Origin: a virus
IMG/VR virus record: IMGVR_UViG_3300045977_000131
Span: 1-35,128 of that record
Length of the DNA stretch: 35,128 nucleotides
Direction: 5' to 3' (one strand)
In this document: one piece after another, positions 1 through 30,080 of the stretch
How the letters are laid out: each line of letters opens with the position of its first letter
Position numbering within the stretch: position 1 is the stretch's first letter
The notes under the pieces: generated by a model
Seen by the model: only the letters and a program-made list of their open reading frames with translations
Told to the model about the DNA's origin: nothing
Database searches by the model: none
Made by a program: the position numbers and the translations under genes

Positions 1-42
1 GTTTACAAAATGACGGTGGTTTTAGAGGCAATCAAGCAGTGA
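1..42 (+). CDS. 3' end of an ORF entering from the left, or a tiny 10-codon ORF
   Basis: The frame starting at base 1 is open and ends in TGA at 40-42 (VYKMTVVLEAIKQ). It could be the tail of a gene cut by the window edge, or start at the ATG at base 10. Nothing identifies its function. It lies upstream of the HNH gene and its ribosome binding site. Confidence 0.25.
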   Translation, partial: VYKMTVVLEAIKQ

Positions 43-121
43 AGCCGCCGTATAATAATCGAGCCATGACAGCGGTATGAACGCTGCCATGGCCCTAACC
101 ACGAACCTTCGAGGAGGTCCA

Positions 122-772
122 ATGGCTTCAGCCACAATATCACGACGCGCCCGCGTTTGTCGTTTATGCGCCAACTCTGAGCCAGTCGCAATCTTTCGTA
201 AGACGGGAAATATTTGCAATCGCTGTAAGCAGGCGAGACACAGATTAAGGATCGAAAACGGTTACCTGCCGCCGCTCTCAAAGCGCGAGCCAAAGCCAAT
301 AATGGAGCGGCTGCTAGCTCACCGCAGGATAGATCCAAACGGCTGTTGGGTTTGGACTGCTTCCACTGACAGACAGGGCTATGGCCACATTTCGAACGTA
401 TTCATAGGCGGAAAATCGCGCTCTATTTCCGTTCACAGACTGGTTGCCCATTTGATCCACGGACTTGATTTAAGCAGTAGGAATACCTACGCCTGTCACC
501 ATTGCGACAACCCGCCATGCTTCAACCCGGATCATCTCTTCGTCGGAACCCCGAAGGACAATTCGGACGATTGCAAGAACAAGGGACGCGAGAGGCACCA
601 ACTAGGGGAGGAAAACGGCGGTGGCGGCAAGCTAACCGCTGATCAGGTTTCCGAGATCAGGGACCGATACAGGCACGGGGAATCTCAAAGAGTTATCGCG
701 AGCGCCTTCGGTGTTGATCAAACGATGATCAGCATGATCGTGCTGCGAAAGCAATGGCGTCACGTCCAGTGA
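122..772 (+). CDS. HNH endonuclease (HNH_3 type) with zinc ribbon and C-terminal HTH
   Basis: This 216-residue protein looks like a free-standing phage homing endonuclease. Residues 13-35 hold two CxxC pairs (C13/C16, C32/C35), a probable zinc ribbon. Residues about 74-140 are the HNH_3 core: the GCWVW opening, a SVHR histidine region, then CHHCDNPPCFNPDHL with the metal-binding His/Cys cluster and the HNH N and H. Residues about 168-215 (KLTADQVSEIRDRY through WRHV) form a helix-turn-helix typical of the DNA-binding tails of these nucleases. The start at 122 is chosen because GAGGAGGT sits 4-11 bases upstream; an upstream in-frame ATG at 77 has no such site. It lies just ahead of a broken endolysin, and such nucleases often mark insertion sites. 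Nuclease family is well supported by motifs; homing activity is inferred. Confidence 0.85.
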   Translation: MASATISRRARVCRLCANSEPVAIFRKTGNICNRCKQARHRLRIENGYLPPLSKREPKPIMERLLAHRRIDPNGCWVWTASTDRQGYGHISNVFIGGKSRSISVHRLVAHLIHGLDLSSRNTYACHHCDNPPCFNPDHLFVGTPKDNSDDCKNKGRERHQLGEENGGGGKLTADQVSEIRDRYRHGESQRVIASAFGVDQTMISMIVLRKQWRHVQ

Positions 773-794
773 ACGCCAAGTTGGAGGCGCTGAA

Positions 795-905
795 GTGAAT
801 CAGGGTATGAGGCCCGCAGGTTCAAGTCAGGCCATTCTTTTAACCATCAAACAACGCGGCGCCGCATGGCTGGGGCGCGCTGGAGCGGCTATTGAGTGCA
901 TCTAA
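795..905 (+). CDS. Small 36-residue ORF of unknown function
   Basis: A GTG start follows a good GGAGG at 783-787 with 7-base spacing, and the frame ends in TAA at 903-905, overlapping the GTG start of the next gene. The product (VNQGMRPAGSSQAILL...) has a short hydrophobic patch and an Ala/Gly-rich end but no recognisable domain. The ribosome binding site and translational overlap argue that it is translated, perhaps as a coupling leader for the membrane protein that follows. Confidence 0.4.
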   Translation: MNQGMRPAGSSQAILLTIKQRGAAWLGRAGAAIECI

Positions 906-1192
906 CGGATTGGCTCCTTCAGAACGCATGGTCCATCGTAGTGACCGCAGTGCTCGTTTACAACTACGTCATCCGCAAAGACACCAGCCGAGATATTCAG
1001 ATCAAGGTGCTACAGGATGCGGTGGCCGAGCACGTCAAGCAGTGTACGGAAACGCCGAACTCAACCTTGCTCGCTGAAATTCGCGCTGTGAACAAATCGC
1101 TGGCCGACCATGCCGAGCAGGATCGGCAAGTGGCGGCAGAAATCCGCGCCGACATTCGCGAGATTAACCGGCTCTTGGCTAACCGATCATGA
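896..1192 (+). CDS. Membrane-anchored coiled-coil protein beside the endolysin (holin- or spanin-like)
   Basis: The 98-residue product has one N-terminal transmembrane segment (about residues 10-27, WSIVVTAVLVYNYVI). A long charged helix follows (about 35-98) with heptad-like spacing of hydrophobics (IRAVNKSLADH, IREINRLL). The GTG start overlaps the preceding small ORF, and its TGA overlaps the ATG of the endolysin (ATGA), so the genes are translationally coupled. A single N-terminal anchor with a coiled-coil tail beside a lysozyme fits an inner-membrane spanin-like or accessory lysis protein; DUF2730-type phage proteins look similar. It has one membrane segment only, so a classical multi-span holin is less likely. 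Lysis role is inferred from context. Confidence 0.6.
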   Translation: MHLTDWLLQNAWSIVVTAVLVYNYVIRKDTSRDIQIKVLQDAVAEHVKQCTETPNSTLLAEIRAVNKSLADHAEQDRQVAAEIRADIREINRLLANRS

Positions 1193-1500
1193 CACCCGAC
1201 CAGCTATTCCAACGCCTGCTGACGTTCATTCTGCGCCCTGACCACGAGGGCGGATACGCGAACGACCCGCAAGACCCCGGCAAGGAAACGATGCGCGGGA
1301 TAACTGCGCCGGTCGCTCGCAAGTGGGGATACTTCGGCCCGATGCGCGATCTGCCCATCGAACTGACGGAGAAGATTTACCGCGTGGACTACTTCGACCT
1401 GTGCCGCTGTGCCGAGTTGCCGCAACCCTTGGCCGCGCTGGTGTTCGACGCAGCGGTTAACCAGGGACCGGGAGCAGCCGGCGAATTCATCAGCGAGTAG
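1189..1500 (+). pseudogene. GH108 endolysin, catalytic domain only (truncated)
   Basis: The 103 residues match the catalytic half of glycoside hydrolase 108 N-acetylmuramidases, which cleave peptidoglycan at the end of the lytic cycle. The catalytic Glu lies in the hallmark HEGGYANDPQDPG (about residues 19-31), followed by TMRGIT and the FDAAVNQGPGAA motif near residues 86-98. Family members run about 160-190 residues and continue into a PG_binding_3 domain. Here the frame stops shortly after GPGAA. A recognisable piece of that second domain (GAIGPKTVAAVQ) appears about 270 bases downstream, so the gene has been interrupted. Whether the catalytic half alone is active cannot be told. No other lysozyme is seen in the window. 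Confidence 0.75.
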
Positions 1501-1754
1501 GCGCCAAATGAGTGCACTTCCATGTCCTGATTCTTAAATCCGTAGAATTGCCGCAGCCTTGATCCTGCTCACCCAGGTTTAACGCGTGAAGCCGCGGCGC
1601 GGCTGGGCTGGAAACAAGGAATGCTGCGGCTCGTCGAATTCCTTTTCGGTAATCAAAGCGTGAGGCTCCACGAACCAGGGGTGGGCATGGGTTTTGAAGT
1701 TCAAGACGAAACCCGGCGGTAAGGGCCAGCATGGCGTCTACGACCTCACAGAAG
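1501..1754. other. Unexplained insert splitting the endolysin
   Basis: This stretch separates the two endolysin pieces and has no convincing complete gene. The minus strand holds an open segment containing WFVEPHALITEKEFDEP that ends at a TAA near 1580. The plus strand holds LTREAAARLGWKQGML, which resembles the helix-turn-helix of sigma factors, but only briefly. Both look like fragments. A small intron is possible in principle, but I see no convincing intron core. Confidence 0.4.
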
Positions 1755-2120
1755 ACGACGTTCGGACAATCGCACGGCGCAATCGGGCCGAAGACTGTCG
1801 CCGCAGTGCAGTCGATCAACCCCAAGGCGAAGCGCGCCAGTGAGTACCGCCATTCCGAAATCAAGTCCGCCACCATGAAGCGCGTTCAGGAAGAGTACAG
1901 AGCGATCCGGATTGAACGGTCAAATGAAACGACCCGGCGCAACAAGTCATACATGACCGCAGTCCGAGCGGCGGCGGCGCTCCGGCGCCGTATCCGCGAA
2001 TGGCGTGACCGTCACGACAGCGTCACGGAATTCCAGTTACCGAATCTTGGCGGCGTTCATCCGTGGCGCGCTGACGAACGGGCGTCGTGGGCTGAACACG
2101 AAAGCAAGAAAGGGCAATAG
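1731..2120 (+). pseudogene. Displaced PG_binding_3-like C-terminal part of the endolysin
   Basis: The frame encodes 129 residues. GAIGPKTVAAVQSINPKA is the signature opening of the PG_binding_3 domain that follows the GH108 catalytic core. MKRVQEEYRAIRIER and a later RRRIREW resemble the YRxxR and GWxxR parts of that domain, but they are separated by sequence that does not fit, including a KRASEYRHSEIK stretch that looks partly duplicated. The first ten or so residues are not domain-like, so the ATG at 1731 may not be used. It ends immediately before the next gene. I read it as the remnant of the split endolysin; a new small gene built from the remnant is an alternative. Confidence 0.45.
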
Positions 2121-2954
2121 ATGCCGGATACAGAATTACCCGATTTAACGGCCGCTGAAGACCTGCAGGACGACGACCTAGCGTATGTCGTGCAGGGCGG
2201 CGCGGCTGACCGTAAGGCCACCATTGCGCAGTTACGGGGCGACCCCGCGGCGCGTCTTGTGGCGCTCGATGAGTTGTCACCGTTGACGGAAGAAGACCTG
2301 CTGTTCGTTGTGCGCGGCGCTGGTTCCCCGCTGGAATACACCGCCTACAGAACTACGGTTGCGGACCTGATTGCTCTGGCGCCGACGTCAGACTTCGACC
2401 CGGGATACACCACGCCTGTCGATGGTGACTTCGCCTGGTCGAATCAGGGCGGCGCGAGCATTACCACGCTGGCAAACGGCGGACTGTTCTTGAGGGCGCC
2501 GGCGGGAAGCGCAATCAATCTGCGCTGCCGTGTGAAGGCTGCGCCAGCGACACCGTATTCGGTCATCGCGCGTATCGAACCGCTAATCGGCGGCGTGAAC
2601 ACTAGCCAATTGTGCGGGCTGCTGTTCTCCGACGGCACAAAGCTGGTAACGCTGGCCGTTACGAGCGCGGCAATGGCGCGCGTCACTCGCTGGAATAACA
2701 CCGGGTCTTACAGTGCGGATTCACTGGTACGCGTGGGCAGACCGGCGGGCTGGTTCAAAATCGAGGACGACGGAACCAACCTGAAGTATTACGTCGGCAA
2801 CGACGGCGAGAACTGGATTCTGATGTTCAGTCAGGCGCGCGGCAATTTCCTATCTACCGGACCGACGCATATCGGCTGGTTCGTCAATTCCGAAGAAGCC
2901 AGCCAGGCCATCGACGCGGCGGCAACGCTGCTGAGTTGGGAAGAGACCACGTGA
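2121..2954 (+). CDS. Tail-fibre-like protein with concanavalin-like C-terminal domain (copy 1)
   Basis: The 277-residue product begins with two short repeats, LPDLTAAEDLQDDDLAYVV and a later ALDELSPLTEEDLLFVVRG, of the kind at the start of phage tail-fibre and appendage proteins. From about residue 95 it becomes a beta-rich domain (DGDFAWSNQGGASI, then DDGTNLKYYVGNDGENW) resembling DUF1349/concanavalin-like folds that bind sugars. A clear paralog lies at 10312-11166: both begin MPDT, both carry GDFAW-NQGGAS, and both end LLSWEET or LLSWKET. ATG follows the previous stop directly, and its own TGA overlaps the GTG of the next gene. A receptor-binding or fibre role is inferred. Confidence 0.65.
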   Translation: MPDTELPDLTAAEDLQDDDLAYVVQGGAADRKATIAQLRGDPAARLVALDELSPLTEEDLLFVVRGAGSPLEYTAYRTTVADLIALAPTSDFDPGYTTPVDGDFAWSNQGGASITTLANGGLFLRAPAGSAINLRCRVKAAPATPYSVIARIEPLIGGVNTSQLCGLLFSDGTKLVTLAVTSAAMARVTRWNNTGSYSADSLVRVGRPAGWFKIEDDGTNLKYYVGNDGENWILMFSQARGNFLSTGPTHIGWFVNSEEASQAIDAAATLLSWEETT

Positions 2955-3415
2955 GCAAGCTGGTACTGGTCGAGGGCGGATACCTTGAACTCACCGAGAT
3001 AGACGGCGACCTGAAGCTGGTCGCGGTCGACCCGTGGACGAAACGGATTTCCGTCTATCAGGCAAACCGGCTACTGGACCGTGAATTCGCTAACGGCGCA
3101 TGGTTCGAACCTCGAAGCACAGATCCGGGCGAAGATGGAAGCGGCGGCGTGATTCCCGGCATGGTGCGCACGTTCGTCCCGGCGGCTAACTTCAGCGTGG
3201 CGTCGAATAAGGAAAAGACGAACGCTGAGCCGATTCACTTCAACAACGTTCCCGCGTGTGACATCCGGTTTATGGCCTTGTTCACCGCGGAAGAGGACGG
3301 AAACTTCATGCGGTCCTGTCCGTTGACTACGGAACTGATTGGCGTGCCGGACGGGGCTTCTGTGACGATTCCGGAGGGCGGTTCAATCTTCAGCTTGCAG
3401 GACGTCGAGAGCTAA
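2951..3415 (+). CDS. Phage tail-fibre-like small protein (DPGE family, copy 1)
   Basis: The 154-residue protein contains NRLLDREFANGAWFEP followed by STDPGEDGSG. This is a divergent form of the motif seen in many phage proteins as NRLL...F...LHTADPGETGANE, found near the end of tail operons. A paralog is at 13951-14349. The extra N-terminal block (SKLVLVEGGYLELTEIDGD) is not in the paralog. GTG at 2951 is preferred because it overlaps the TGA of the preceding gene. The last residues (VTIPEGGSIFSL) match the end of the paralog (VTIPEEACIFAF). A strong terminator follows. It is probably a minor structural or adhesion protein; exact function unknown. Confidence 0.6.
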   Translation: MSKLVLVEGGYLELTEIDGDLKLVAVDPWTKRISVYQANRLLDREFANGAWFEPRSTDPGEDGSGGVIPGMVRTFVPAANFSVASNKEKTNAEPIHFNNVPACDIRFMALFTAEEDGNFMRSCPLTTELIGVPDGASVTIPEGGSIFSLQDVES

Positions 3416-3422
3416 AAGAAAA

Positions 3423-3454
3423 AGCCACCCCGCCGGGTGGCTCTCTCTTGTTCT
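3423..3454 (+). terminator. Rho-independent terminator closing the left module
   Basis: AGCCACCC (3423-3430) pairs perfectly with GGGTGGCT (3435-3442) around a CGCC loop, and a T-rich tract (CTCTCTTGTTCT) follows. It begins 8 bases after the stop of the upstream gene and separates the lysis/tail-fibre block from the main structural operon. Confidence 0.85.
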
Positions 3455-3833
3455 AGGCTGGCCTGAATTCGCGCTGGACCCCGTCGGGCCGCTGGCTGGT
3501 TTCAGTCGGACTCTTTCGCCTTCGGCGTGGCGGTTTTCTTCTTACTCATTTTCCGATTCCCCGCAACCCCACCTGTTTCCCATTTCGGGAGAAGACAGGT
3601 AACCACCGCGCAGCCGAGCACAGAATAGGCGCCTGCAGCCGTCCACGTCAAACAAAACTTGCACCATGGGGGTATACTCTCCCCGAAAGCAACTGCAAGA
3701 CGTCGAGTTCGGGATAGGGGCGCTATGCGACATGTTCAAAGGTTAGGGGTCGTTCGGCGTTGATAGCGCCGTGCGGCCCCGCTTTATGCCTACAGGAATC
3801 GGCAAACAGCATGGGGCAACAACTGAAGGTTGA
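3455..3833. other. Spacer between left module and structural operon
   Basis: No convincing gene is visible. The minus strand has a 15-codon ORF near 3505-3552 (MSKKKTATPKAKESD) of unknown value. A TATACT at 3673-3678 could be a -10 box, but no good -35 lies 16-18 bases upstream. The operon that follows must be transcribed from here or by read-through, and I cannot fix its promoter. Confidence 0.4.
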
Positions 3834-3983
3834 CCGCTCAGGATTGCCGAATTCGTTGACGAACTGGCAGCACGCCGCGGCTATCGCTATGCGCTTCTGG
3901 ACGCCATCGACGACAGGTTCGGGCTTGGCTGGAATCGCCGCCTGATGCGCTGCCACCGGCTTGCGATCGAGTTGACGCGCTGA
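3834..3983 (+). pseudogene. Small protein fragment lacking a normal start
   Basis: The frame encodes LRIAEFVDELAARRGYRY followed by LLDAIDDRFGLGWNRRL and CHRLAIELTR, which reads like real protein but has no ATG, GTG or TTG after the upstream stop at 3831-3833. An ATG at 3811 in another frame (MGQQLKVDRS) could be its true start if a one-base indel near 3840 occurred. Its TGA overlaps the ATG of the next tiny ORF. Function unknown. Confidence 0.35.
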
Positions 3984-4045
3984 TGTTCTGGCGATTCTGG
4001 CAGGCGGTTATGACGGTTCTTTTCGGGATACCAAAGAATGAGTAA
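3983..4045 (+). CDS. 20-residue hydrophobic peptide
   Basis: MFWRFWQAVMTVLFGIPKNE starts in an ATGA-type overlap with the previous frame and ends inside the start of the following two-span membrane protein. It is hydrophobic and aromatic. The overlap on both sides suggests translation, but the length makes any call weak. Confidence 0.3.
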   Translation: MFWRFWQAVMTVLFGIPKNE

Positions 4046-4247
4046 GTGGTGTGACAAGAGACTTCTAGCTGCGCTGTTCGTGTTCATGGTGCTAGTCGTC
4101 ATATACCTGCACTGGCTGGCGCCGGAGCCGGGAACAACGCAGTGGGCAAGGGAAACGGCGAATCTAATCATCGGCGGTCTGGTCGGGCTTGTGACCGGCG
4201 CGCTATTGGCAGGCGGCGGCAATCCGCCAAATGGAGAGAGTCAATGA
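4038..4247 (+). CDS. Small two-span membrane protein, holin-like
   Basis: The 69-residue product has two hydrophobic segments: about residues 9-25 (LLAALFVFMVLVVIYL) and 43-60 (LIIGGLVGLVTGALLAG). They are joined by a short loop, with a charged start and a polar tail. Size and topology match small class II-type phage holins. Its TGA overlaps the ATG of the next gene. It is separated from the endolysin fragments by the terminator at 3423, so pairing with them is not proven. A membrane protein of other use is the alternative. Confidence 0.5.
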   Translation: MSKWCDKRLLAALFVFMVLVVIYLHWLAPEPGTTQWARETANLIIGGLVGLVTGALLAGGGNPPNGESQ

Positions 4248-4609
4248 ATTGGGGAGCATTCGGAAAGGCTGTTGCCAATGTCGGCGGTCTGGTCGCCGGT
4301 ATCGGTCCAATATTCGCCGCGTCCACCAAGAACACCAAGGACGACATGATTGTTGCGCGCACCGTGGACACGCTGAATCAGATCGTCGGCGTTGTCGAGT
4401 CGGTTGAAGTGTTCAACGCTGCGCTGACCGCGCCTGTCACTGGATCGGAGAAAGCCAAGGCTTCAGGTCCAATGGTCGCGCAGATCATCATTCGTTCGAT
4501 GGAAGCGAGCGGAAAGAAACTCGACGGCGACAAGCGCGAGAAGTTCGCCGCGGCCTGCGCTGCGATGGGCGGAAACGTCGCGGACATCATGGATTGCTTC
4601 AAGGACTAA
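4244..4609 (+). CDS. Small helical protein of unknown function
   Basis: The 121-residue product begins with a glycine-rich hydrophobic stretch (AVANVGGLVAGIGPIFA, about residues 8-24) that could be a membrane segment. It continues as predicted helices rich in Ala, Lys and Asp. The ATG is chosen because it overlaps the TGA of the preceding holin-like gene. No family is recognised. Its place directly before the head-closure gene and after a membrane protein suggests a small virion or lysis accessory protein; this is a guess from position. Confidence 0.5.
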   Translation: MNWGAFGKAVANVGGLVAGIGPIFAASTKNTKDDMIVARTVDTLNQIVGVVESVEVFNAALTAPVTGSEKAKASGPMVAQIIIRSMEASGKKLDGDKREKFAAACAAMGGNVADIMDCFKD

Positions 4610-4969
4610 GTGAAAGACTACGCCGCGGGCGACCTCGACCGGATAGCAACTATCCAGGTTAAGACGAGTGTCGCCGATGAGATGAGCGCCGAAGGGACGG
4701 AAGAGTGGGCCGAATATGCGGCCGACGTTCCTTGCGCTGTGGAGTATGCCGGATCGCGCGAGTTCCCGGCGAGCGTTAAGCGAGTAGCTGAATCGACCGT
4801 CCGGTTCGTGTTCCGCTACCGCTCCGACATCGACCCGGCCACCATGCGGATTGTGTACGTGGAAGACCACGACGCCAGCCCGACACGGGAACAAGTCTTC
4901 GACATCTTTCCGCCACAGCACATCGGTCGCCGTGACTTCACGGCAGTAGAGGCCAAAGAGTCCCAATAA
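4610..4969 (+). CDS. Head-tail adaptor / head closure protein (Phage_H_T_join type)
   Basis: The 119-residue protein fits the SPP1 gp16-like head-closure family. It opens with a short beta start (GDLDRIATIQVK) and a DEMSAEGTEEWAEYA insertion. The diagnostic C-terminal half follows: a TVRFVFRYRSDIDPATMRI strand pair and then VYVEDHDASPTREQVFDIF. These proteins form the ring that closes the capsid connector and receives the tail. GTG directly follows the preceding stop. The next gene starts immediately at its TAA. Portal and capsid genes, usually just upstream, are absent. Confidence 0.75.
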   Translation: MKDYAAGDLDRIATIQVKTSVADEMSAEGTEEWAEYAADVPCAVEYAGSREFPASVKRVAESTVRFVFRYRSDIDPATMRIVYVEDHDASPTREQVFDIFPPQHIGRRDFTAVEAKESQ

Positions 4970-9888: not shown

Positions 9889-10319
9889 GCAATCGCCGCG
9901 CCTGGTATTTGACCGACGCCGACGAGATGGAAGAATTCCCGCTTGCTGAGCGGTTCGGCTCGTCCATGCGTGTCGAGCGCGTGACCCTCGACATGACAGC
10001 GGAGCGCGGCCGACGGTTCATCTACACGCAGGAAGAGCGCCGCCGAGTGTGGACGCTGCTGTTTCGGTTCCACACGCAGGAGATTTACGACTTCTTTGAA
10101 GACTTGGACGCAGCCGTGACCGGCGACGAAACGCCGTTCTATTTCGTGCTGGACCCGGACGCCTCGCCGATTGATGCCGTGCTGGTACGCAAGGAGAAAG
10201 ACTTCGATCCGCGCCCAATGGACACCGGCAAGTCATCCGGCGACACGGCCGCTCCAATTTGGGACTACACCCTCACCCTAACCGAAGAGATCGACACGGA
10301 GTTCAGCATAGATGCCTGA
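9885..10319 (+). CDS. Tail protein downstream of the tape measure (distal-tail-like)
   Basis: The 144-residue product is predicted mostly beta. It begins SNRRAWYLTDADEMEEFPLAE and contains ERVTLDMTAERGRRFIYTQ, a WTLLFRFHTQEIYDFFEDL segment, FYFVLDPDASPIDAVLVRK and a closing WDYTLTLTEEIDTEFS strand. This resembles the short proteins that link tube and hub in siphovirus tails, but I do not recognise a named family. ATG overlaps the tape measure stop (ATGA), and its own TGA lies 8 bases inside the next gene, so it is translated as part of the tail operon. Confidence 0.55.
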   Translation: MSNRRAWYLTDADEMEEFPLAERFGSSMRVERVTLDMTAERGRRFIYTQEERRRVWTLLFRFHTQEIYDFFEDLDAAVTGDETPFYFVLDPDASPIDAVLVRKEKDFDPRPMDTGKSSGDTAAPIWDYTLTLTEEIDTEFSIDA

Positions 10320-11173: not shown

Positions 11174-13942
11174 ATGCCTCTGATACTCGAAGGCGGCGGC
11201 GACCTTCTCTTAGAAGACAGCGACAGTCTTTTACTCGAAACCGCTCCGGAAGCGCAGGACCCGTCATGCGACTTTGACGCGGGCGCGGACTTCTCCTGTA
11301 CCGCCTACGTCTCGCGCATCCGTGGCGCTCGATGGCTGGCGATCGGTACCATCTTTCTCGATGACGCCACCGAGTACGTCGCGACCGGGCGCACCACGCA
11401 TCCTTCCCGAACCTACGAGGGGCGCGTTCTCTCGTGGGGCAGCATCGACAAGTCCATCCCTGTCCCGTCGGGGATGCCGCAGGCTTCTCAACTGCGCTGC
11501 CGTCTGGCTGACACTGACGAAGCATGGCGCGACAAGCTGGGCGGGCAGACTCCGCAGGGGCGGCGCATTCAGGTCAAGTTCCTTCAGGAAGGAACGTCAG
11601 AAGCAGCAGCCGACATTCTGTTTACCGGCATCATCGAAGAGTTTTCTACAGGGCCGGGGTATGTCGAAATCTACGCGGTCAGCGACGAGTTGTCGTGGCT
11701 CGACGAGCGTATCCCCGATGTCATCACGCCGGAGAACTTCCCTGAGTATGCGAAGGTCGAGCAGGCATTTCTTCCGGTGTGGCTCGGGCACGTTGTCGGA
11801 AAGGCGGTCTCGCTCGGCTTTGCCAATGCAGCCCCAGCCGAACCGGCAGCGGGCGCTCTGGTCGATGCGGCCGACGCTGCCGACGCCCTGACGGCTGAGA
11901 TACTCGCGGCGGTGTTCACTTCGCCGGGATCACTCTTTGGCGTGCTTGCAGCCCAGCAAGAATGGATTGAGAAGATCGAGTCGAAGTACGCGCAGGCTCT
12001 CCCGCTCATCCTGAACGAGTTCAACCTGCAATACGACGCCGGGGTGATTGAACTCGCGGACGCCGTTTACGCGCGGGACAAGCTGCAAGACTTGCTCGAC
12101 GCGGTGGACGCTCGGGCGACGGAGTATGCCGCGGGCAACTCTCAGCGCGCGGCGGTCATCAGCAACTTCCGCGGCGGTGTGACTTCCTTCTATGGCGACA
12201 CATGGGAAACGCTGCTGGCGGAACTCGACGCGAAGATAGCCACGCTGGAAGGTTCGCCACCGGCTGAAGCATTCGCGCCACAGGGGGCCGTCCCGCTCCC
12301 CTACATCGGCGGCAATCGGTGGGGCGCGGCGATGCACCCGTTGTGGCGGGAGTTGTGCCTGTATCGCAAGGAGCCGGACGAGGCGGTATTTACCGGCGTG
12401 CCGATTGAGGAATACGCCGTGACGGCGGAAGTCCGGAGCTTCGCGGAGTATCCTGACAGAACCTTCACCTGTACGTTCATCGACTTCCTTGTCGCCCAAC
12501 CGGACGGCACGGAAATCCGTCTTGACTCTGACGGGGCCTACTCGCGAGACGCATTCGGCTCCATGCCCGCCGCTGGCTACGCGGCCGACGGATTCAACGG
12601 GCCGCTTCGCAACCCGGTCGACGGCTTCCTGATCCTAAAAGAACTCATCCTGCCGAAGTCGGCCACGGCGGCAAACTCGAATATAGACGCGCTGATCGCT
12701 CTCCGGAACAAGATGGAAACGGGCGGGGCGACAATGCCGCCGCTGTTCTGTGACGGGGTGGTGAATGAGTCCATGACCGGCCGAGAACTCATGGGGCGGT
12801 TCCATGCGACGTTTCAGACCGACTTCTACCACGATAAGAAGGGCCGCGAGACGCTGAAGCGCATCGACGACACGGACGACGGCAGACCGGAGATAACCGA
12901 GCACGTTATTGTGCGGAATACCTGGGGCGAGCGTTCCCCGAATCCGACCGTCAACCGATACCGGGCAAACTATGGCCGCGACTACGCCACCGACAACTGG
13001 TTCGACATCGCTTTAGCCGACAATCTGAGCGATCAGGAGGCCCGGCAGAAGGTCCAGGACGCAACGGTTGACTTCTGGTTCGCCCGAGACGCGCAGACGG
13101 CTCTAGCGGCCACGCAGGACCGTTTACGGTATACGGCGCTTGGCTCCTACCGGCAACGCGCAGAAGTGCCGCTGCCGCAAGTCTCGGCCTTCCTTGAACT
13201 GGCCAAACTGGTAGGCTGGACGCACTACCGCGGAATGCAGATCAGCGGCTACCACAACCGGGAAGCCAAGATCATCGGCTATTCCATCGACCTTGACGGC
13301 TTCAAGGTGGCGATCGACTCGATTGTGCGGGTTGCTCTGCCGTTCGGTGAGCGGCAACTGGCGGAAGCGAACTTTGACGCGGGCGCTCCGATGACGGTCG
13401 AAGAGAGCCATCAGAACGAAGTATTCCCGATTTCGGTCGAAGAAAACCCGGTACCTGACACCGTAGCCAACAATACGACGCGCGTTCGGATTGTCGATGG
13501 CGAGCCGGAATACCCTATGGTTCCCGGCGACACGCTGTATTACTCGCTCGACATCACGGGCGGCTCTGGCGTCTCTCCGATGGCGAAGGAACACTATCGC
13601 TTCCCGGAGCCGGACCCGCTGAAGACGCTAACTGCCGTAACCATGAAAGTCCGGTTGCGAAAAACCATCAGCCCGGCGCACGTTCCACAGGCTGCATACG
13701 CATCGCTGTATGAGGGAACCAATCTGAACGACGTGGACAACGGAACGGCGTCGTTCGGCTTTGGCGCGATGGTTTCGGCTGATTTCGCCACATACGAGTC
13801 CAGTCCCGTTTCCGCCGCAACGTGGAACAGCTACACCGATCCAGTTCTCGCGTTCAGGCTGTTCGACTCATCCGGCGAAATCGGCTCGCCGTACCCAACC
13901 TTCGACATATCCGAAGTCAAGATCGTTTACCACTACGCATAG
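11174..13942 (+). CDS. Tail hub / tail-tip protein
   Basis: The 922-residue protein lies where siphoviruses encode the tail hub or tip attachment protein. It opens with short degenerate repeats (LILEGGGDLLLEDSDSLLLE). Residues about 35-190 are a beta-rich region (TAYVSRIRGARWLAIGTIF, then FTGIIEEFSTGPGYVEIYAV) like hub and baseplate domains that hold the inserted ligand between beta layers. Residues about 255-365 look helical and Ala-rich, and 600-740 carry more hub-like beta sequence (RNTWGERSPNPTVNRYRANY, FKVAIDSIVRVALPFG). The last 170 residues form a separate beta-sandwich-like end (MKVRLRKTISPAHVP, then FDISEVKIVYHYA) that may be a carbohydrate or receptor module. No enzymatic motif was seen. 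Confidence 0.65.
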   Translation: MPLILEGGGDLLLEDSDSLLLETAPEAQDPSCDFDAGADFSCTAYVSRIRGARWLAIGTIFLDDATEYVATGRTTHPSRTYEGRVLSWGSIDKSIPVPSGMPQASQLRCRLADTDEAWRDKLGGQTPQGRRIQVKFLQEGTSEAAADILFTGIIEEFSTGPGYVEIYAVSDELSWLDERIPDVITPENFPEYAKVEQAFLPVWLGHVVGKAVSLGFANAAPAEPAAGALVDAADAADALTAEILAAVFTSPGSLFGVLAAQQEWIEKIESKYAQALPLILNEFNLQYDAGVIELADAVYARDKLQDLLDAVDARATEYAAGNSQRAAVISNFRGGVTSFYGDTWETLLAELDAKIATLEGSPPAEAFAPQGAVPLPYIGGNRWGAAMHPLWRELCLYRKEPDEAVFTGVPIEEYAVTAEVRSFAEYPDRTFTCTFIDFLVAQPDGTEIRLDSDGAYSRDAFGSMPAAGYAADGFNGPLRNPVDGFLILKELILPKSATAANSNIDALIALRNKMETGGATMPPLFCDGVVNESMTGRELMGRFHATFQTDFYHDKKGRETLKRIDDTDDGRPEITEHVIVRNTWGERSPNPTVNRYRANYGRDYATDNWFDIALADNLSDQEARQKVQDATVDFWFARDAQTALAATQDRLRYTALGSYRQRAEVPLPQVSAFLELAKLVGWTHYRGMQISGYHNREAKIIGYSIDLDGFKVAIDSIVRVALPFGERQLAEANFDAGAPMTVEESHQNEVFPISVEENPVPDTVANNTTRVRIVDGEPEYPMVPGDTLYYSLDITGGSGVSPMAKEHYRFPEPDPLKTLTAVTMKVRLRKTISPAHVPQAAYASLYEGTNLNDVDNGTASFGFGAMVSADFATYESSPVSAATWNSYTDPVLAFRLFDSSGEIGSPYPTFDISEVKIVYHYA

Positions 13943-13950
13943 GGGAACAC

Positions 13951-14349
13951 ATGGCATTCAAGCGAATCAGCGAGTACAACGCGAACCGGCTGCTGGAATT
14001 GGAATTCGAGGACGGCGCATGGATCTCGCTTCACGACGACGACCCCGGCGAGAGCGGCGCTAACGAAATCGCCGACGTAGACCGCGTGTTCGTCAGTGCG
14101 GCCGGCTGGAGCGTTGCGGCCGACAAGGAACTTCACAACGTGGACCAGATCGACTTCGAGAACATGCCGGCGTGTGAGGTTAGCTACTTCGGCGCGTGGG
14201 ACGCAGAGACGGCCGGGAACTTCCTGCGGTCCACGCCGCGGCTCGACGGCTCACCGCTCGAAGTCACGCCGCTGAGCGTATCGGAAGGAAACACGGTCAC
14301 CATACCGGAAGAAGCCTGCATCTTCGCCTTCTCGAACGTGGAAGTGTAA
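13951..14349 (+). CDS. Phage tail-fibre-like small protein (DPGE family, copy 2)
   Basis: The 132-residue paralog of the gene at 2951. It shows the family motif more clearly: NANRLLELEFEDGAWISLHD followed by DDPGESGANEI. SLH-x-DPG-x-x-G-x-N-E is the conserved core of a common phage tail family. The C-terminal half (FENMPACEVSYFGAWDAET, FLRSTPRLDG, VTIPEEACIFAF) aligns with copy 1. It starts 8 bases after the hub gene, with GGGGAACAC upstream as a weak ribosome binding site, and ends in a TAATG overlap with the next gene. It is probably a minor virion protein of the tail tip. Confidence 0.68.
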   Translation: MAFKRISEYNANRLLELEFEDGAWISLHDDDPGESGANEIADVDRVFVSAAGWSVAADKELHNVDQIDFENMPACEVSYFGAWDAETAGNFLRSTPRLDGSPLEVTPLSVSEGNTVTIPEEACIFAFSNVEV

Positions 14350-19149: not shown

Positions 19150-19168
19150 GTAATCTCCTTAATCGACA

Positions 19169-19191
19169 TTCTTCCTCCAGCGCGCTAGTGG
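19169..19191 (-). repeat. 23-base direct repeat with ribosome binding site, copy 1
   Basis: This block, which includes GCGCGCTGGAGGAAGAA on the minus strand, is repeated exactly at 21632-21654. In copy 1 the next codons are ATGTCG, opening an 11-codon ORF (MSIKEITCTIQ) that overlaps the start of the gene at 19149. In copy 2 the same ATGTCG starts the HNH-like gene. The copy here may be the scar of a lost or moved homing gene. Confidence 0.7.
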
Positions 19192-21182: not shown

Positions 21183-21631
21183 GGCGGCACTCCTTTCCAG
21201 CGGTTTCCTTTTGCAGTTGATAGGACTTGCTCGGTGGTCAGTCCGCGCTTGTATCGCCAGTGGACCTTTCTAGGGCTTAGCCCGAGCCTCTTGGCCCATT
21301 GGAATAGCGGCAAGGTGACGCCCCTGTATTCAATAGAAATGACGTTGCGCTTGTTTAGGGACTGCTCGGCGACGGTGGCCCATTTGCAGTTCGAAGGCTC
21401 GTAATTCCCGTCGTTGTTGATGCGCTCAAGCCAGTGCCCATCAGGGCGCGGCCCCATATCATCGTAGAAAGCCTGAAATGAATTCCATCTGTCACAGATC
21501 CGGATGCCGCGCCCGCCATAGTTCGCATAGGCAACGGCTTTCGGATTCAGGCATCGGCTTCTCATGCCAACCCATGATGAGTACGACGGCGTTCCGTGCA
21601 TCCAGTGCCGCGGTCTCAGGTTCTTCGACAT
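21173..21631 (-). CDS. HNH-like homing endonuclease candidate (GGRGI...DRINNDGNYEPxNCxW family)
   Basis: The 152-residue protein belongs to a phage family with the pattern TPSYSSWVGMRSRCLNPKA, then YGGRGIRICDRW, DDMGPRPDGHWLERINNDG and NYEPSNCKWATVAEQ. It is often grouped with HNH or AP2-type mobile nucleases. The ERINNDGNYEPSNCKW stretch plays the part of the HNH core but lacks the canonical first His, so activity is uncertain. The C-terminal part (GVTLPLFQWAKRLGLSPRKV, HWRYKRGLTTEQVL) is a helix-turn-helix for DNA binding. The ATG at 21631 lies 7-10 bases after a GGAGGAAG that is part of a 23-base repeat found again at 19169, suggesting mobility. Confidence 0.65.
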   Translation of the reverse strand: MSKNLRPRHWMHGTPSYSSWVGMRSRCLNPKAVAYANYGGRGIRICDRWNSFQAFYDDMGPRPDGHWLERINNDGNYEPSNCKWATVAEQSLNKRNVISIEYRGVTLPLFQWAKRLGLSPRKVHWRYKRGLTTEQVLSTAKGNRWKGVPPCP

Positions 21632-21654
21632 TTCTTCCTCCAGCGCGCTAGTGG
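21632..21654 (-). repeat. 23-base direct repeat with ribosome binding site, copy 2
   Basis: Identical to 19169-19191. Here it supplies the GGAGGAAG ribosome binding site of the HNH-like gene, and its far end contains the TAG stop of the preceding frame. Confidence 0.7.
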
Positions 21655-25910: not shown

Positions 25911-26123
25911 TTAAACTGTTTCCAAAAACCAGCTTTTCAGGGACTCAACCCGATTAGCCTTACCGGCTCTTTCGAGTTGCTCCCATGTAATCGCGCCTTG
26001 CAGAACCAGATCGTGTGCCGCCTGATAACAGGGACGGCACAAGCCGCGCACTCCGCCGTCCCTCTGACACCGCCTCGTAAGGCAGCGCGGACGGCTTGCG
26101 ACGGCCACAGTTCTTTCACGCAC
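25911..26123 (-). CDS. Small RGLC..HY-type zinc protein, paralog B
   Basis: The 70-residue product carries RCLTRRCQRDGGVRGLCRPC followed by YQAAHDLVLQGAITWEQLE and AGKANRVESLKSWFLETV. C...C...RGLC..C gives a four-cysteine zinc site. The rest (AAHDLV..G.ITWEQLE.AGKA) is a helical region shared with two paralogs nearby at 26116 and 26444. GTG at 26123 overlaps the end of its neighbour; a GTG at 26108 is an alternative. Position at the promoter-proximal end of the operon fits a regulator, but this is inferred. Confidence 0.6.
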   Translation of the reverse strand: MRERTVAVASRPRCLTRRCQRDGGVRGLCRPCYQAAHDLVLQGAITWEQLERAGKANRVESLKSWFLETV

Positions 26124-26325
26124 GGGCTTTGCTCTCTTCAAGAAACCAATCGGAGGCCAGCGTCCGTGCTCCGGCCTTTCCCGCCTCCTGTAATTTCTTC
26201 CAGCTCGTGCGACCGTCCTTGACGAGCTGTCTTGCTGATTCGTAGTGCTTCCGGCACAGCCCCCGGCACACCGGCGAATTGCCGCATGGGGGAAACATAC
26301 AAACCGCATGTGTCAATTTACGCAT
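26116..26325 (-). CDS. Small RGLC..HY-type zinc protein, paralog A (first gene of the operon)
   Basis: The 69-residue product begins MRKLTHAVCMFPPCGNSPVC and continues RGLCRKHYESARQLVKDG, TSWKKLQEAGKAGARTL and SDWFLEESKARA. C-x4-C...RGLC..HY supplies Cys/His ligands. The family (C...C..P..RGLC..HY..A..LV..G.TSW..L) is common in phages, with unknown function. It is the first gene after the promoter at 26368-26396, with a leader of about 35 bases. Its divergent partner at 26444 is a paralog. Confidence 0.65.
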   Translation of the reverse strand: MRKLTHAVCMFPPCGNSPVCRGLCRKHYESARQLVKDGRTSWKKLQEAGKAGARTLASDWFLEESKARA

Positions 26326-26367
26326 GATTCAAAGCTCCGAATACAGACGATTACAGCAACTTGCAGG

Positions 26368-26396
26368 GTTATACACGTGGATGGCCTACGATGCAA
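26368..26396 (-). promoter_or_regulatory. Sigma-70 promoter of the long minus-strand operon
   Basis: On the minus strand TTGCAT (26396-26391) and TATAAC (26373-26368) are separated by exactly 17 bases. The -10 box lies 42 bases ahead of the first start codon at 26325. No other comparably good promoter is seen for this operon of about 11 kb. Confidence 0.72.
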
Positions 26397-26443
26397 GCCT
26401 AAAATGTAGATTTATTCGGAGACCTTCTGAAACACTGTGCGAC

Positions 26444-26731
26444 ATGACGACTGAGGACCGATGCCTATTTCCAAAGTGCGAGAATCCGCCGGCCAGTCGC
26501 GGGCTTTGCAAGAACCACTACCAGATGGCTCATGACAAGGTTAAGCAGGGAAAGACATCATGGGAGGCTCTGGAGAAAGCAGGGAAAGCGAATCCGCGTC
26601 AGGTCAAGGAGGGATCGTGGTTCGAGGAAAAGCCTACAGGGGGGAGTAAGAAAAAATCGTTTGGGATGAATGGGCCAGCGCGCGTCATCGGAGACATCAC
26701 GTACCTCTTCAAAGAACGCAAAAGCACCTAA
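26444..26731 (+). CDS. Small RGLC..HY-type zinc protein, paralog C (divergent)
   Basis: The 95-residue product from MTTEDRCLFPKCENPPASRG continues LCKNHYQMAHDKVKQGKTSW, EALEKAGKANPRQVKEGSWF, then a longer basic tail (GGSKKKSFGMNGPARVIGD). It is clearly related to the two minus-strand neighbours, with the strongest match to paralog A. The ATG at 26444 begins the conserved region; longer upstream frames run through the promoter region and lack coding character. A plus-strand -10-like TAAAAT lies near 26400 but without a good -35. Confidence 0.65.
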   Translation: MTTEDRCLFPKCENPPASRGLCKNHYQMAHDKVKQGKTSWEALEKAGKANPRQVKEGSWFEEKPTGGSKKKSFGMNGPARVIGDITYLFKERKST

Positions 26732-27306: not shown

Positions 27307-27522
27307 ATGTCCGACAGTCAGACCGAACAATCTACACACCACTCCGGCATCCGCTCGGGCGCCGGGCATGTCGCGTACTGCAACCTGTGCGGCATACCCA
27401 AGTATCCCTGCGCCCTGCATGAAGACGCGGTTCGCATCCTCCGCGAGCACCGCGAGACGCAAGAGCACCAGCTACAGCTCTCCTGTTACCAGACTTCCGG
27501 CAAGCGCGAGGGGAGCCGATGA
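27307..27522 (+). CDS. Small hypothetical protein with CxxC
   Basis: The 71-residue product includes SGIRSGAGHVAYCNLCGIP, then KYPCALHEDAVRILREHRE and LSCYQTSGKREGSR. C-x2-C plus C-x2-H can bind zinc. It is the first gene after the promoter at 27223, and its stop overlaps the ATG of a truncated gene (ATGA). Function unknown. Confidence 0.5.
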   Translation: MSDSQTEQSTHHSGIRSGAGHVAYCNLCGIPKYPCALHEDAVRILREHRETQEHQLQLSCYQTSGKREGSR

Positions 27523-27572
27523 AGAAGCCCGTCGAGTCCATCCGAATGAATGACGCTGCCCGTGAGGCCGGC
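27519..27572 (+). pseudogene. First 18 codons of a truncated plus-strand gene
   Basis: MKKPVESIRMNDAAREAG starts in an ATGA overlap with the preceding gene, as real genes here do. At about 27572 it runs into antisense sequence of integrase A, so everything after codon 18 is lost. The original gene cannot be identified. Confidence 0.6.
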
Positions 27573-27917
27573 GTGCTGGACATACTCTTCAATCTTCGCC
27601 GTCTTGATGCTCGCCAAAGTCATGTATCCGAAGAACGGGTTAATGTGCTTCTCGAAGTTCCGCTTCAGGTCTTTGAGGCTGGCCCGCTTCTTAATGGCGT
27701 AGTTCCGCTCCATGTCGGCGGCAATCTCTTTAAACAGGCATCGGCCCGTCCGGTGAGTGATCGGCGCGCCCTGCGCCAGCATCCCTTCGAGCCGCTTCAG
27801 TTCGTCACAGGCGGCTTGATAGTCGGTCGTCTCGGCGCTCCGGGGGCGCTGCTTGCCGTCGATCATGGGGGCTATCCACCAGAACGGCGAGTCTTTACGG
27901 CGGTAAGGCTTACTCAT
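27573..27917 (-). pseudogene. Tyrosine recombinase A, 3'-truncated
   Basis: About 115 residues of a phage integrase N-terminal half remain. RRKDSPFWWIAPMIDGKQRP is the usual arm-binding opening, then ETTDYQAACDELKRLEGML. The core-binding domain begins LFKEIAADMERNYAIKKRAS and ends NPFFGYMTLASIKTAKIEE. After YVQH the sequence becomes antisense to the truncated gene at 27519. The whole catalytic domain, with its Arg, His and Tyr residues, is missing, so it cannot be active. Its own promoter remains upstream at 27927. Orientation is convergent with the truncated plus-strand gene, so one deletion could have removed both 3' ends. Confidence 0.8.
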
Positions 27918-27926
27918 GGGCCGGGA

Positions 27927-27954
27927 ACTATACCACCCCGCCCCTGCGAGGTGG
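27927..27954 (-). promoter_or_regulatory. Promoter of integrase A, near-leaderless
   Basis: On the minus strand TATAGT (27932-27927) lies only 9 bases before the ATG, so transcription would start within a few bases of the start codon. CCACCT sits 16 bases upstream as a weak -35. The layout and sequence resemble the promoter of integrase B at 29437. Confidence 0.5.
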
Positions 27955-27958
27955 CGGG

Positions 27959-28591
27959 ATGAGCATACCGGGACCGATGGGCAAACTCATGGGCGAAGTG
28001 GACGCGATGGTCGAGGATCGAATCATCCGGGAACGGCTCAAGGCTCCCTTCCCGTGGTTCGGCGGCAAGTCTCGTGTCGCTGACCTCGTGTGGCAACGGT
28101 TTGGCGATGTCCCTAACTACATCGAGCCGTTCGCCGGTTCGCTGGCCGTCCTGCTGGCCCGTCCGCACGATCCGCACACCGAGACAATCAACGACCTTGA
28201 CTGCATGGTGGCGAACTTCTGGCGGGCGCTTTCCGCCGATCCTGACGCCGTTGCTCAGTATGCCGACTGGCCGCCTTACATGGACAGCCGAACGGAGGGC
28301 CTTTATGCAGCGGACTCGCTTTCCGTAGCGGCCGAAGTGCGCCATTGGGCCATCGAGAACGGGAATAACCGGCTGCTCAGAATCGCGCTGTGTGGCTACG
28401 AAGGCGAGCACGACCTGCCGGGCTGGGATTGTGTGGAGTGGAAGGCCAAAGGCGGATACGGCTCGCAGGGCAAAGGAACCGGGCGGGAAAACGCTGGCCG
28501 GGAACGCATCTGGTTTTCGCCGCACTGTCTTGCGGTCAAGCGGCAACAGGAAGTCTTCGACTTCACAAGCGGCTGCGAGGCGGGGCGATGA
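27959..28591 (+). CDS. DNA adenine methyltransferase (D12/Dam-like) with internal deletion
   Basis: The 210-residue product keeps the N-terminal SAM-binding part (APFPWFGGKSRVADLVW, then YIEPFAGSLAVLLARP and INDLDCMVANFWRAL) and the C-terminal part of the family (SVAAEVRHWAIENG, then RIALCGYEGEHDLPGW and WKAKGGYG, RERIWFSPHC). Relatives are about 300 residues. Between YADW and PPYMDS roughly 90 residues are missing, including the target-recognition region. The join gives DWPPY in place of the catalytic DPPY. The deletion is in frame, so a protein could still be made, but methylation is unlikely. The ATG abuts the promoter of integrase A. Its TGA overlaps the next gene start. Confidence 0.75.
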   Translation: MSIPGPMGKLMGEVDAMVEDRIIRERLKAPFPWFGGKSRVADLVWQRFGDVPNYIEPFAGSLAVLLARPHDPHTETINDLDCMVANFWRALSADPDAVAQYADWPPYMDSRTEGLYAADSLSVAAEVRHWAIENGNNRLLRIALCGYEGEHDLPGWDCVEWKAKGGYGSQGKGTGRENAGRERIWFSPHCLAVKRQQEVFDFTSGCEAGR

Positions 28592-28629
28592 GGCCTCTCT
28601 GCATTGACCTGTTCTGCGGCCTTGGCGGC
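28588..28629 (+). pseudogene. First 14 codons of a C5-cytosine methyltransferase
   Basis: MRPLCIDLFCGLGG is the unmistakable motif I opening (DLFCGLGG) of DNA cytosine-5 methyltransferases. It starts in an ATGA overlap with the previous gene. After GG the sequence switches to antisense of integrase B, so the rest of the enzyme, including the catalytic Pro-Cys motif, is lost. Confidence 0.8.
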
Positions 28630-29424
28630 TTTCCAGTACGGCGACTGAAACACGTAGACAGCATCCGGAAGGAAGCGGCGGCGATTCTCGAGCATGGCTT
28701 TGACTCGAGGGGTAATGGAGAGGATGCGCCTCGCGTAATCGGTCTTCCCCGCCCTGATTTCAATGTAGCCGGACCTCGAGTTGTGCGCGCCTTCGATGTG
28801 AACGTCGGTCCACTCGAGCGCGACTCCTTCGCCGGCGCGAACTCCGGTATCCAGCGAGAGCGTGGCGAAGTCGCGAAGGGTGTGTTCAGCCATCGCCAGA
28901 TACGCCGCCTCTTGTCCGTAGGACAGCACGAACTCCCTGCCCTTCTCTCCGGTCAGCCTGGGATTGGTCGGCGCGGCAGCGGGCAATTTAAACGTCTTTC
29001 TGGCGACATTCAGCATCCGCTTCAGGACGGTCACTTCCCTGTTGATGCTGGCAATCGACATGGTGTGTTTGCGGTGGCGGATGTATTCCTCCACGACGGC
29101 TTCGTCGATCAGGTTCAACCGGCATTGAGCCAGCGGTTTGTGCTCGAGCAGGCGCCGGACCTTCTCTTCGTAAAACTCCACGGTGGCCGGGTGATCGCCG
29201 TTTCTGGTCCGGACGAACTCGAGGAAGTCTTCCTTGAACTTCTCGAGAGTCGGCCCCGGCTTATTCGGTCTCAGGCCGTGGATCGCCAGCGCGAGATCCG
29301 TCTTGGCCTTCGCCTCAATCTTGCGGGCCTCAGCAGCGTTGCCGAGTTTGGTGGACGCCTGATGCCGCTCGCCGTTGAACCGGAACGAATACCAGTAGAC
29401 GCCGCCGCGTTTGTATATCGCCAT
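28630..29424 (-). pseudogene. Tyrosine recombinase B, 3'-truncated
   Basis: About 265 residues of a second integrase, unlike A in sequence. The N-terminal arm domain is MAIYKRGGVYWYSFRFNGER. The core-binding domain is FKEDFLEFVRTRNGDHPATV to INREVTVLKRMLNVARKTF. The catalytic domain starts FATLSLDTGVRAGEGVALEW, which holds the first catalytic Arg, and continues IRAGKTDYARRILSITP with the Lys. After VFQSPYWK it meets the truncated cytosine methyltransferase. The HxxR, His/Trp and Tyr motifs are gone, so it is inactive. Its open frame continues to 28396 only by chance in antisense of the adenine methyltransferase. Confidence 0.82.
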
Positions 29425-29436
29425 ACGTGGCCGCGA

Positions 29437-29464
29437 ATTATAGCCCACACCCCCAGCGAGGCAA
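29437..29464 (-). promoter_or_regulatory. Promoter of integrase B, near-leaderless
   Basis: On the minus strand TTGCCT (29464-29459), a 16-base spacer and a perfect TATAAT (29442-29437) precede the integrase ATG by only 12 bases. The stretch GCCTCGC, a G-rich spacer, TATA and CGGCC is shared with the promoter of integrase A. The ATG of the plus-strand methyltransferase lies 5 bases beyond the -35. Confidence 0.65.
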
Positions 29465-29468
29465 GGGC

Positions 29469-30080
29469 ATGAGGGTGCTTGTGGCCTGCGAGTTCTCCGG
29501 TGTGGTGCGCGATGCCTTTGCCGCGCTCGGCCATGACGCGTGGTCCTGTGACCTGCTGGACTCGGAAACGCCAGGGCAGCACATCCGCGCCGATGTCTCA
29601 AAGGTGCTCGGCTGGGGCTGGGATTTGATGGTGGCTCATCCGCCCTGCACATACCTGACCAACGCCGGCGTGCGCCACCTTCACGAAAACGTCTCGTCAC
29701 GTCTTGGGAATCGGACGGCCATTTACGGGAAGGCCCGCTGGGTCGAGATGGAGAAGGGCGCCGAGTTCTTCAATGTGCTCAAGAGCGCGCCTATACCGAA
29801 GATTGCCGTCGAGAATCCCGTACCGCACGGTTACGCAACGCGAATCATCGGCCGATACACGCAACTGATTCAGCCCTGGATGTTCGGGCACGGGGAAACC
29901 AAGGCCACCTGCCTATGGCTGAAGTCGCTGCCGCCGCTGTGGCCCACGCAGGTTGTTGAAGGGCGCTTCCCGCGCGTCGACAAGACGCCGCCATCCAAAG
30001 ACCGCTGGAAGCTCCGCAGCGTCACCTATGCAGGCATAGCCCGAGCCATGGCAGAGCAGTGGGGCAATCCCCCGCCCTGA
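29469..30080 (+). CDS. Phage SAM-dependent DNA methylase-like protein
   Basis: The 203-residue protein belongs to a conserved phage family annotated as DNA (cytosine) methylase. The opening MRVLVACEFSGVVRDAFAAL and DAWSCDLLDSE form the SAM site. WDLMVAHPPCTYLTNAGVRH carries the Pro-Cys motif. KIAVENPVPHGYATRIIGRY matches the motif VIII-like VENP, and IQPWMFGHGETKATCLWLK and DRWKLRSVTYAGIARAMA complete the family pattern. It looks full length and intact, in contrast to the two damaged methyltransferases before it. It may modify phage DNA against host restriction. AAGGGC before the ATG is a weak ribosome binding site. Confidence 0.75.
   Translation: MRVLVACEFSGVVRDAFAALGHDAWSCDLLDSETPGQHIRADVSKVLGWGWDLMVAHPPCTYLTNAGVRHLHENVSSRLGNRTAIYGKARWVEMEKGAEFFNVLKSAPIPKIAVENPVPHGYATRIIGRYTQLIQPWMFGHGETKATCLWLKSLPPLWPTQVVEGRFPRVDKTPPSKDRWKLRSVTYAGIARAMAEQWGNPPP

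Follow-up and report, generated by a model that had tools for sequence, protein, structure and literature searches.

Three apparent deletion scars, all in frame, lie within 1.06 kb, in non-essential integrase and methylase genes, in an IMG/VR uncultivated phage genome (a 35,128-base virus record, analysed in full and called the window below). Probably, separate illegitimate deletions are removing a dispensable lysogeny and modification module from a temperate phage or prophage. The initial annotation had described two tail-to-tail fusions, in which the 18-codon start of a plus-strand gene (u1) and a 14-codon Dcm start each adjoin the interior of a minus-strand integrase; both joins, at 27571/27572 and about 28630, are present. 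A further join inside the adenine methylase gene dam had been missed. The case serves mostly as a worked correction: the record has at least four lesions, and the two fusions resembling a recombinase mechanism turn out to be among them. If the joins are real, deletions are stripping a phage of integration and modification genes while leaving the operon readable, and the exact scars can be sought in sister phages.

Table 1. Coordinates of the integrase-methylase cluster in the window
Feature	Position	Strand	Remarks
Small ORF	27307..27522	+	Upstream of cluster; TGA stop overlaps the ATG at 27519
u1, gene start, 18 codons	27519..27572	+	No identity assigned; cut at join 1
Join 1, putative deletion scar	27571..27573		int1 homology to intact Terriglobia integrases ends here
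int1 remnant, 115 aa	27573-27917	-	N-terminal/SAM-like core-binding part of a tyrosine recombinase; PF14659, E 4e-6
int1/dam divergent intergenic region	27918..27958		Related to the int2/MT3 intergenic region
dam, D12-class adenine methylase, start intact	27959-28591	+	PF02086, positions 1-72 of 253 only
Join 2, putative deletion scar in dam	28268..28276 (~28271)		Codon 105, ADW-P/PY; 3 shared bases, CCG
Dcm (cytosine methylase) start, 14 codons	28588..~28630	+	Conserved N-terminus of intact phage cytosine methylases
Join 3, putative deletion scar	28629..28634 (~28630)		Dcm start adjoins int2
int2 remnant, tyrosine recombinase, 264 of about 400 aa	about 28633-29424	-	PHROG_1, E 1e-26
int2/MT3 divergent intergenic region	29425..29468		Minus-strand promoter TTGCCT-16-TATAAT
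MT3, full-length phage DNA methylase	29469-30080	+	PHROG_757, residues 1-200 of 203

Integrase remnants

Chromosomal tyrosine integrases of Terriglobia (Acidobacteriota; loci L122 and L206-L217) are full-length homologues of both int2 (46% identical) and int1. They measure about 350-450 aa and carry HxxR...Y, which the much shorter window copies lack. Of 399 Terriglobia-class genomes, 60 have relatives of int1, the best being 39% identical. The core-binding domain of int1 is present, its PF14659 match lying above the cut-off, and the sequence stops before the catalytic domain, which is absent. The remnant terminates in ...KIEEYVQH; intact Terriglobia integrases align to its residues 113-115 and then read RQxxGAANATINRE, and past this point the window reads the antisense of u1. 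Because the intact integrases continue from that very column, the coordinate given for join 1 is right within one or two bases.

The second integrase matches positions 116-371 of 611 in PHROG_1, with its core-binding (SAM-like) domain present (PF13102, E 6e-4, under the Pfam cut-off). Its last residues are VFQSPYW, and its best intact relative is a Terriglobia integrase of 403 aa. The claim that both integrases had lost their catalytic residues thus applies in full to int1 and in part to int2, which in the alignment keeps Arg-I (TGVRAGE) and the beta-Lys and lacks HxxR, His/Trp and Tyr. No PF00589 catalytic tail was found elsewhere in the record; judged by its sequence, int2 is a remnant that would not be a working enzyme. 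An intact promoter, likewise claimed for both integrases, is found for int2, but the int1 side has only a -10-like TATAGT. The integrase relatives are what points to a putative acidobacterial host. In one Terriglobia genome (L122, 2343-4212), a serine-recombinase-like gene immediately precedes the intact int2 relative, both on one strand.

Methylase genes

The methyltransferase starts reported behind each integrase are intact and MT3 is full length, but dam itself is broken by an in-frame internal deletion. It matches its viral relatives as two blocks meeting at codon 105. Both blocks are present in 28 of 34 viral dam relatives, roughly 330-650 nt apart (417-585 nt in six relatives with the same DWP...DPPY context), and the remaining 6 have only the first block, near a contig end. 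Within the missing part, roughly 110-215 aa, fall the DPPY aspartate and a tandem repeat of 14 aa that varies. A check of dam for the motif I region, central domain and DPPY found the central part gone and DPPY reduced to WPPY. None of the 34 relatives carries the join 2 deletion, and a search with the exact pattern of the join returned 53 matches with no dam relative among them.

The phage D12-class adenine methylases of L002-L034, which have a central tandem repeat, are about 50-81% identical to dam in their N- and C-terminal parts; unlike them, dam has no central part between DWP and DPPY. In loci L002, L004, L005, L006, L008, L009 and L011-L013 the repeat of about 14 aa (QLPHLGDAGTGVHR / RPHLGNAGKGVN) lies mid-protein and varies in copy number, and variable repeat number in viral D12 adenine methylases gives large length differences among close relatives. 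Intact integrases lie close to two of the dam relatives (L002, L020), though there they share the strand and the arrangement is a different one.

The Dcm start (MRPLCIDLFCGLGGF) matches the intact phage cytosine methylases of L026 and L028 (DLFCGLGGF). For MT3, more than 590 viral relatives were found, and 80 loci of these relatives showed no common int or dcm neighbour. The comparison with relatives that had been proposed shows that full-length versions of int1, int2 and dam exist, as does an intact dcm N-terminus.

Reading frame and start motif

Joins 1-3 are all in frame (1/27 by chance), and this figure, like those for the motif and the intergenic regions below, needs caution as the features were noticed after the fact. 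Across antisense int1 the u1 frame is open as far as 27962, and across antisense int2 the Dcm frame as far as 29472, giving a chain of plus-strand ORFs (27307-27522, 27519-27962, 27959-28591, 28588-29472, 29469-30080) whose neighbours overlap by ATGA. NTGA overlaps are common across this genome. The integrase remnants have no stop in 379 codons of the antisense frame, for which the probability is about 0.002 with phage-average codon usage and the argument is weaker when GC3 is matched. The open antisense frame is largely owed to codon usage, TTA, CTA and TCA being rare at this GC3; selection for it was considered as well, and the case is weak once codon usage is allowed for.

The window contains exactly four copies of GCGAGG-N7-ATGA (27506, 27946, 28575, 29456), at the last four starts of the chain, so that copies stand on both sides of each integrase remnant; the motif occurs in none of 37 related loci. 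The regions upstream of dam and MT3 agree at 27 of 41 bases, the top value among 1540 gene-start pairs (mean 11, SD 2.9). Taken together, the in-frame joins, the ATGA chain, the motif and the related intergenic regions are mildly odd and may not be due to chance. The motif and the related intergenic regions are the one feature in favour of cassette exchange or site-specific insertion at GCGAGG-N7-ATGA, in which every integrase would have been left between two copies before internal deletion set in. We regard such an origin as very improbable. GCGAGG-N7 with its start codon looks like a well-spaced Shine-Dalgarno-like site, and within the flanking pairs N7 is equal at only 2/7 and 3/7 positions, which fits ribosome-binding sites and argues against a duplicated tyrosine-recombinase core. 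For an att-flanked element, an identical core of at least about 7 bp would be expected at both ends; the ends share 6 + 4 conserved bases around a non-matching N7. The outer flanks, at the u1 and dcm starts, show no likeness past the ribosome-binding site, the dam deletion needs another cause, and the intergenic pattern shared by the integrase-methylase pairs was found in no other virus searched. No relative shows an exchanged cassette, and neither the viral contigs nor the 399 Terriglobia-class genomes yielded a relative with this operon that could represent an empty site.

In a bolder version, integrase elements would repeatedly target GCGAGG-N7-ATGA at gene starts of a phage methylase operon, each bringing in a new gene start together with an integrase in antisense; later in-frame loss of the catalytic part would restore translational coupling along the operon. 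This seems extremely improbable to us; if true, such targeting would be a ratchet building methylase operons.

Origin of the joins

The initial annotation had offered repeated deletion between convergent genes as one explanation, and this is the best fit: both integrases have intact relatives, and a third independent deletion lies inside dam. It had also held the coincidence too unlikely for chance and suggested a cassette-exchange hot spot, which is not borne out, since the dam deletion needs neither a recombinase nor any special geometry and the endolysin lesion described below lies 26 kb from the cluster. A single deletion at a place where a plus-strand gene meets a minus-strand integrase head-on takes away the two 3' ends and keeps the two 5' ends, and the geometry is thus no surprise. 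What we see is a cluster of deletions without any special two-recombinase geometry.

With intact relatives of the identifiable damaged genes, scars in dispensable genes and one deletion confined to a single gene, tolerated random deletions explain all three joins. The att-like cores or repeats suspected at the breakpoints did not appear in a repeat scan; the 3 shared bases at the sole resolvable join, together with the lack of repeats at the joins, fit illegitimate deletion. Because the integrase remnants are free of stops, the losses look recent. As neither the viral contigs nor the 399 Terriglobia-class genomes yielded a relative in which the arrangement is intact, the ancestor is pieced together gene by gene: it would have carried the small gene at 27307 and u1 (+), int1 (-), a promoter, dam (+), dcm (+), int2 (-), a promoter and MT3 (+). 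One deletion would have removed the 3' part of u1 with the int1 catalytic domain, a second roughly 330-650 nt inside dam, and a third most of dcm with the last ~140 codons of int2. The in-frame scars were perhaps kept because ribosomes could run by ATGA coupling into MT3. Comparison with intact relatives shows which gene parts are missing, and the sequence shows the plus strand running in frame through all the scars; we infer deletion as the process, the order of the events and a loss of the ability to integrate.

A comparable loss is known from the plaque-forming Streptococcus thermophilus phage TP-778L, in which aberrant excision left only a truncated integrase gene (PMC3952083). The window resembles it as a phage genome in which only truncated tyrosine integrase sequence remains after aberrant recombination or deletion. 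TP-778L, however, had a single integrase, and its loss was traced to recombination between complete and truncated integrase copies (PMC3952083), whereas in the window two integrases from different families are affected along with methylases, and deletion is the presumed cause.

The fourth lesion splits the endolysin gene (1183-2120). Its GH108 domain is complete to about 1488, and part of a peptidoglycan-binding C-terminal domain (GAIGPKTVAAVQSINP; local search, E 5e-5) lies in another frame at about 1763-1830, with about 280 unrelated bases (~1488-1770) between the two. As an endolysin is not dispensable, its splitting speaks against a decay of dispensable genes, although GH108 is complete.

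The endolysin also bears on whether the joins exist in the virus at all. They could be chimeras from whole-genome amplification, library preparation or assembly, which we judge rather unlikely. The number of unusual joins, at least four within 35 kb and one of them in the endolysin gene, would suit this origin. Short shared sequence at joins is a feature of amplification chimeras, and 3 bases are shared at the resolvable join. No second copy of the virus was found in IMG/VR for any join, and searches of viral contigs with int1 and int2 gave no other copy of the virus or the joins. Against it, three of the four joins are placed non-randomly, close together in accessory genes, and all three keep the frame. 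No piece recurs in the record as an inverted or duplicated copy, the joins have no k-mer-sized repeat able to mislead an assembler, and base composition shows no step there. Inversion chimeras were ruled out by the lack of inverted copies, and a group I intron or other RNA element was rejected because the window has no match to Rfam elements and no tRNA.

The same deletions could belong to the general pseudogene decay of an integration-defective prophage in a bacterial chromosome. Integrases, methylases and endolysin are all damaged, the integrase relatives are chromosomal in Terriglobia, and no terminase, portal or capsid gene was recognised within the 35-kb record. Yet the tape measure gene (979 aa), a tail gene (922 aa) and the exonuclease, Erf and RusA genes are whole, a codon model likewise shows no break in the long structural and recombination genes, no host gene was recognised in the window, and packaging genes usually lie close to where the window ends. 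General decay in a chromosome is on balance distinctly unlikely, and we retain separate deletions from a dispensable module as the preferred explanation.

Genome setting

Recognised tailed-phage genes comprise head closure, major tail, tape measure, other tail, lysis, exonuclease, Erf, RusA and replication protein genes. The best viral matches of the replication protein are at most 41% identical, and the window is not close to any sequence fetched. Gene order is odd at 1-4610, where HNH, holin, endolysin and fibre-like genes precede the head-closure gene; the fibre-like genes at 2121 and 2936 are paralogues of those at 10312 and 13822-14349. Small Cys-rich proteins with the pattern C..P.C...P..RGLC..HY are encoded on both strands at 25911-26731, in at least three copies around a divergent region. 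Tandem repeats are absent from the window, and a 30-nt direct repeat (97% identical; 19163-19191 and 21625-21654) lies upstream of the minus-strand genes 19149 and 21631.
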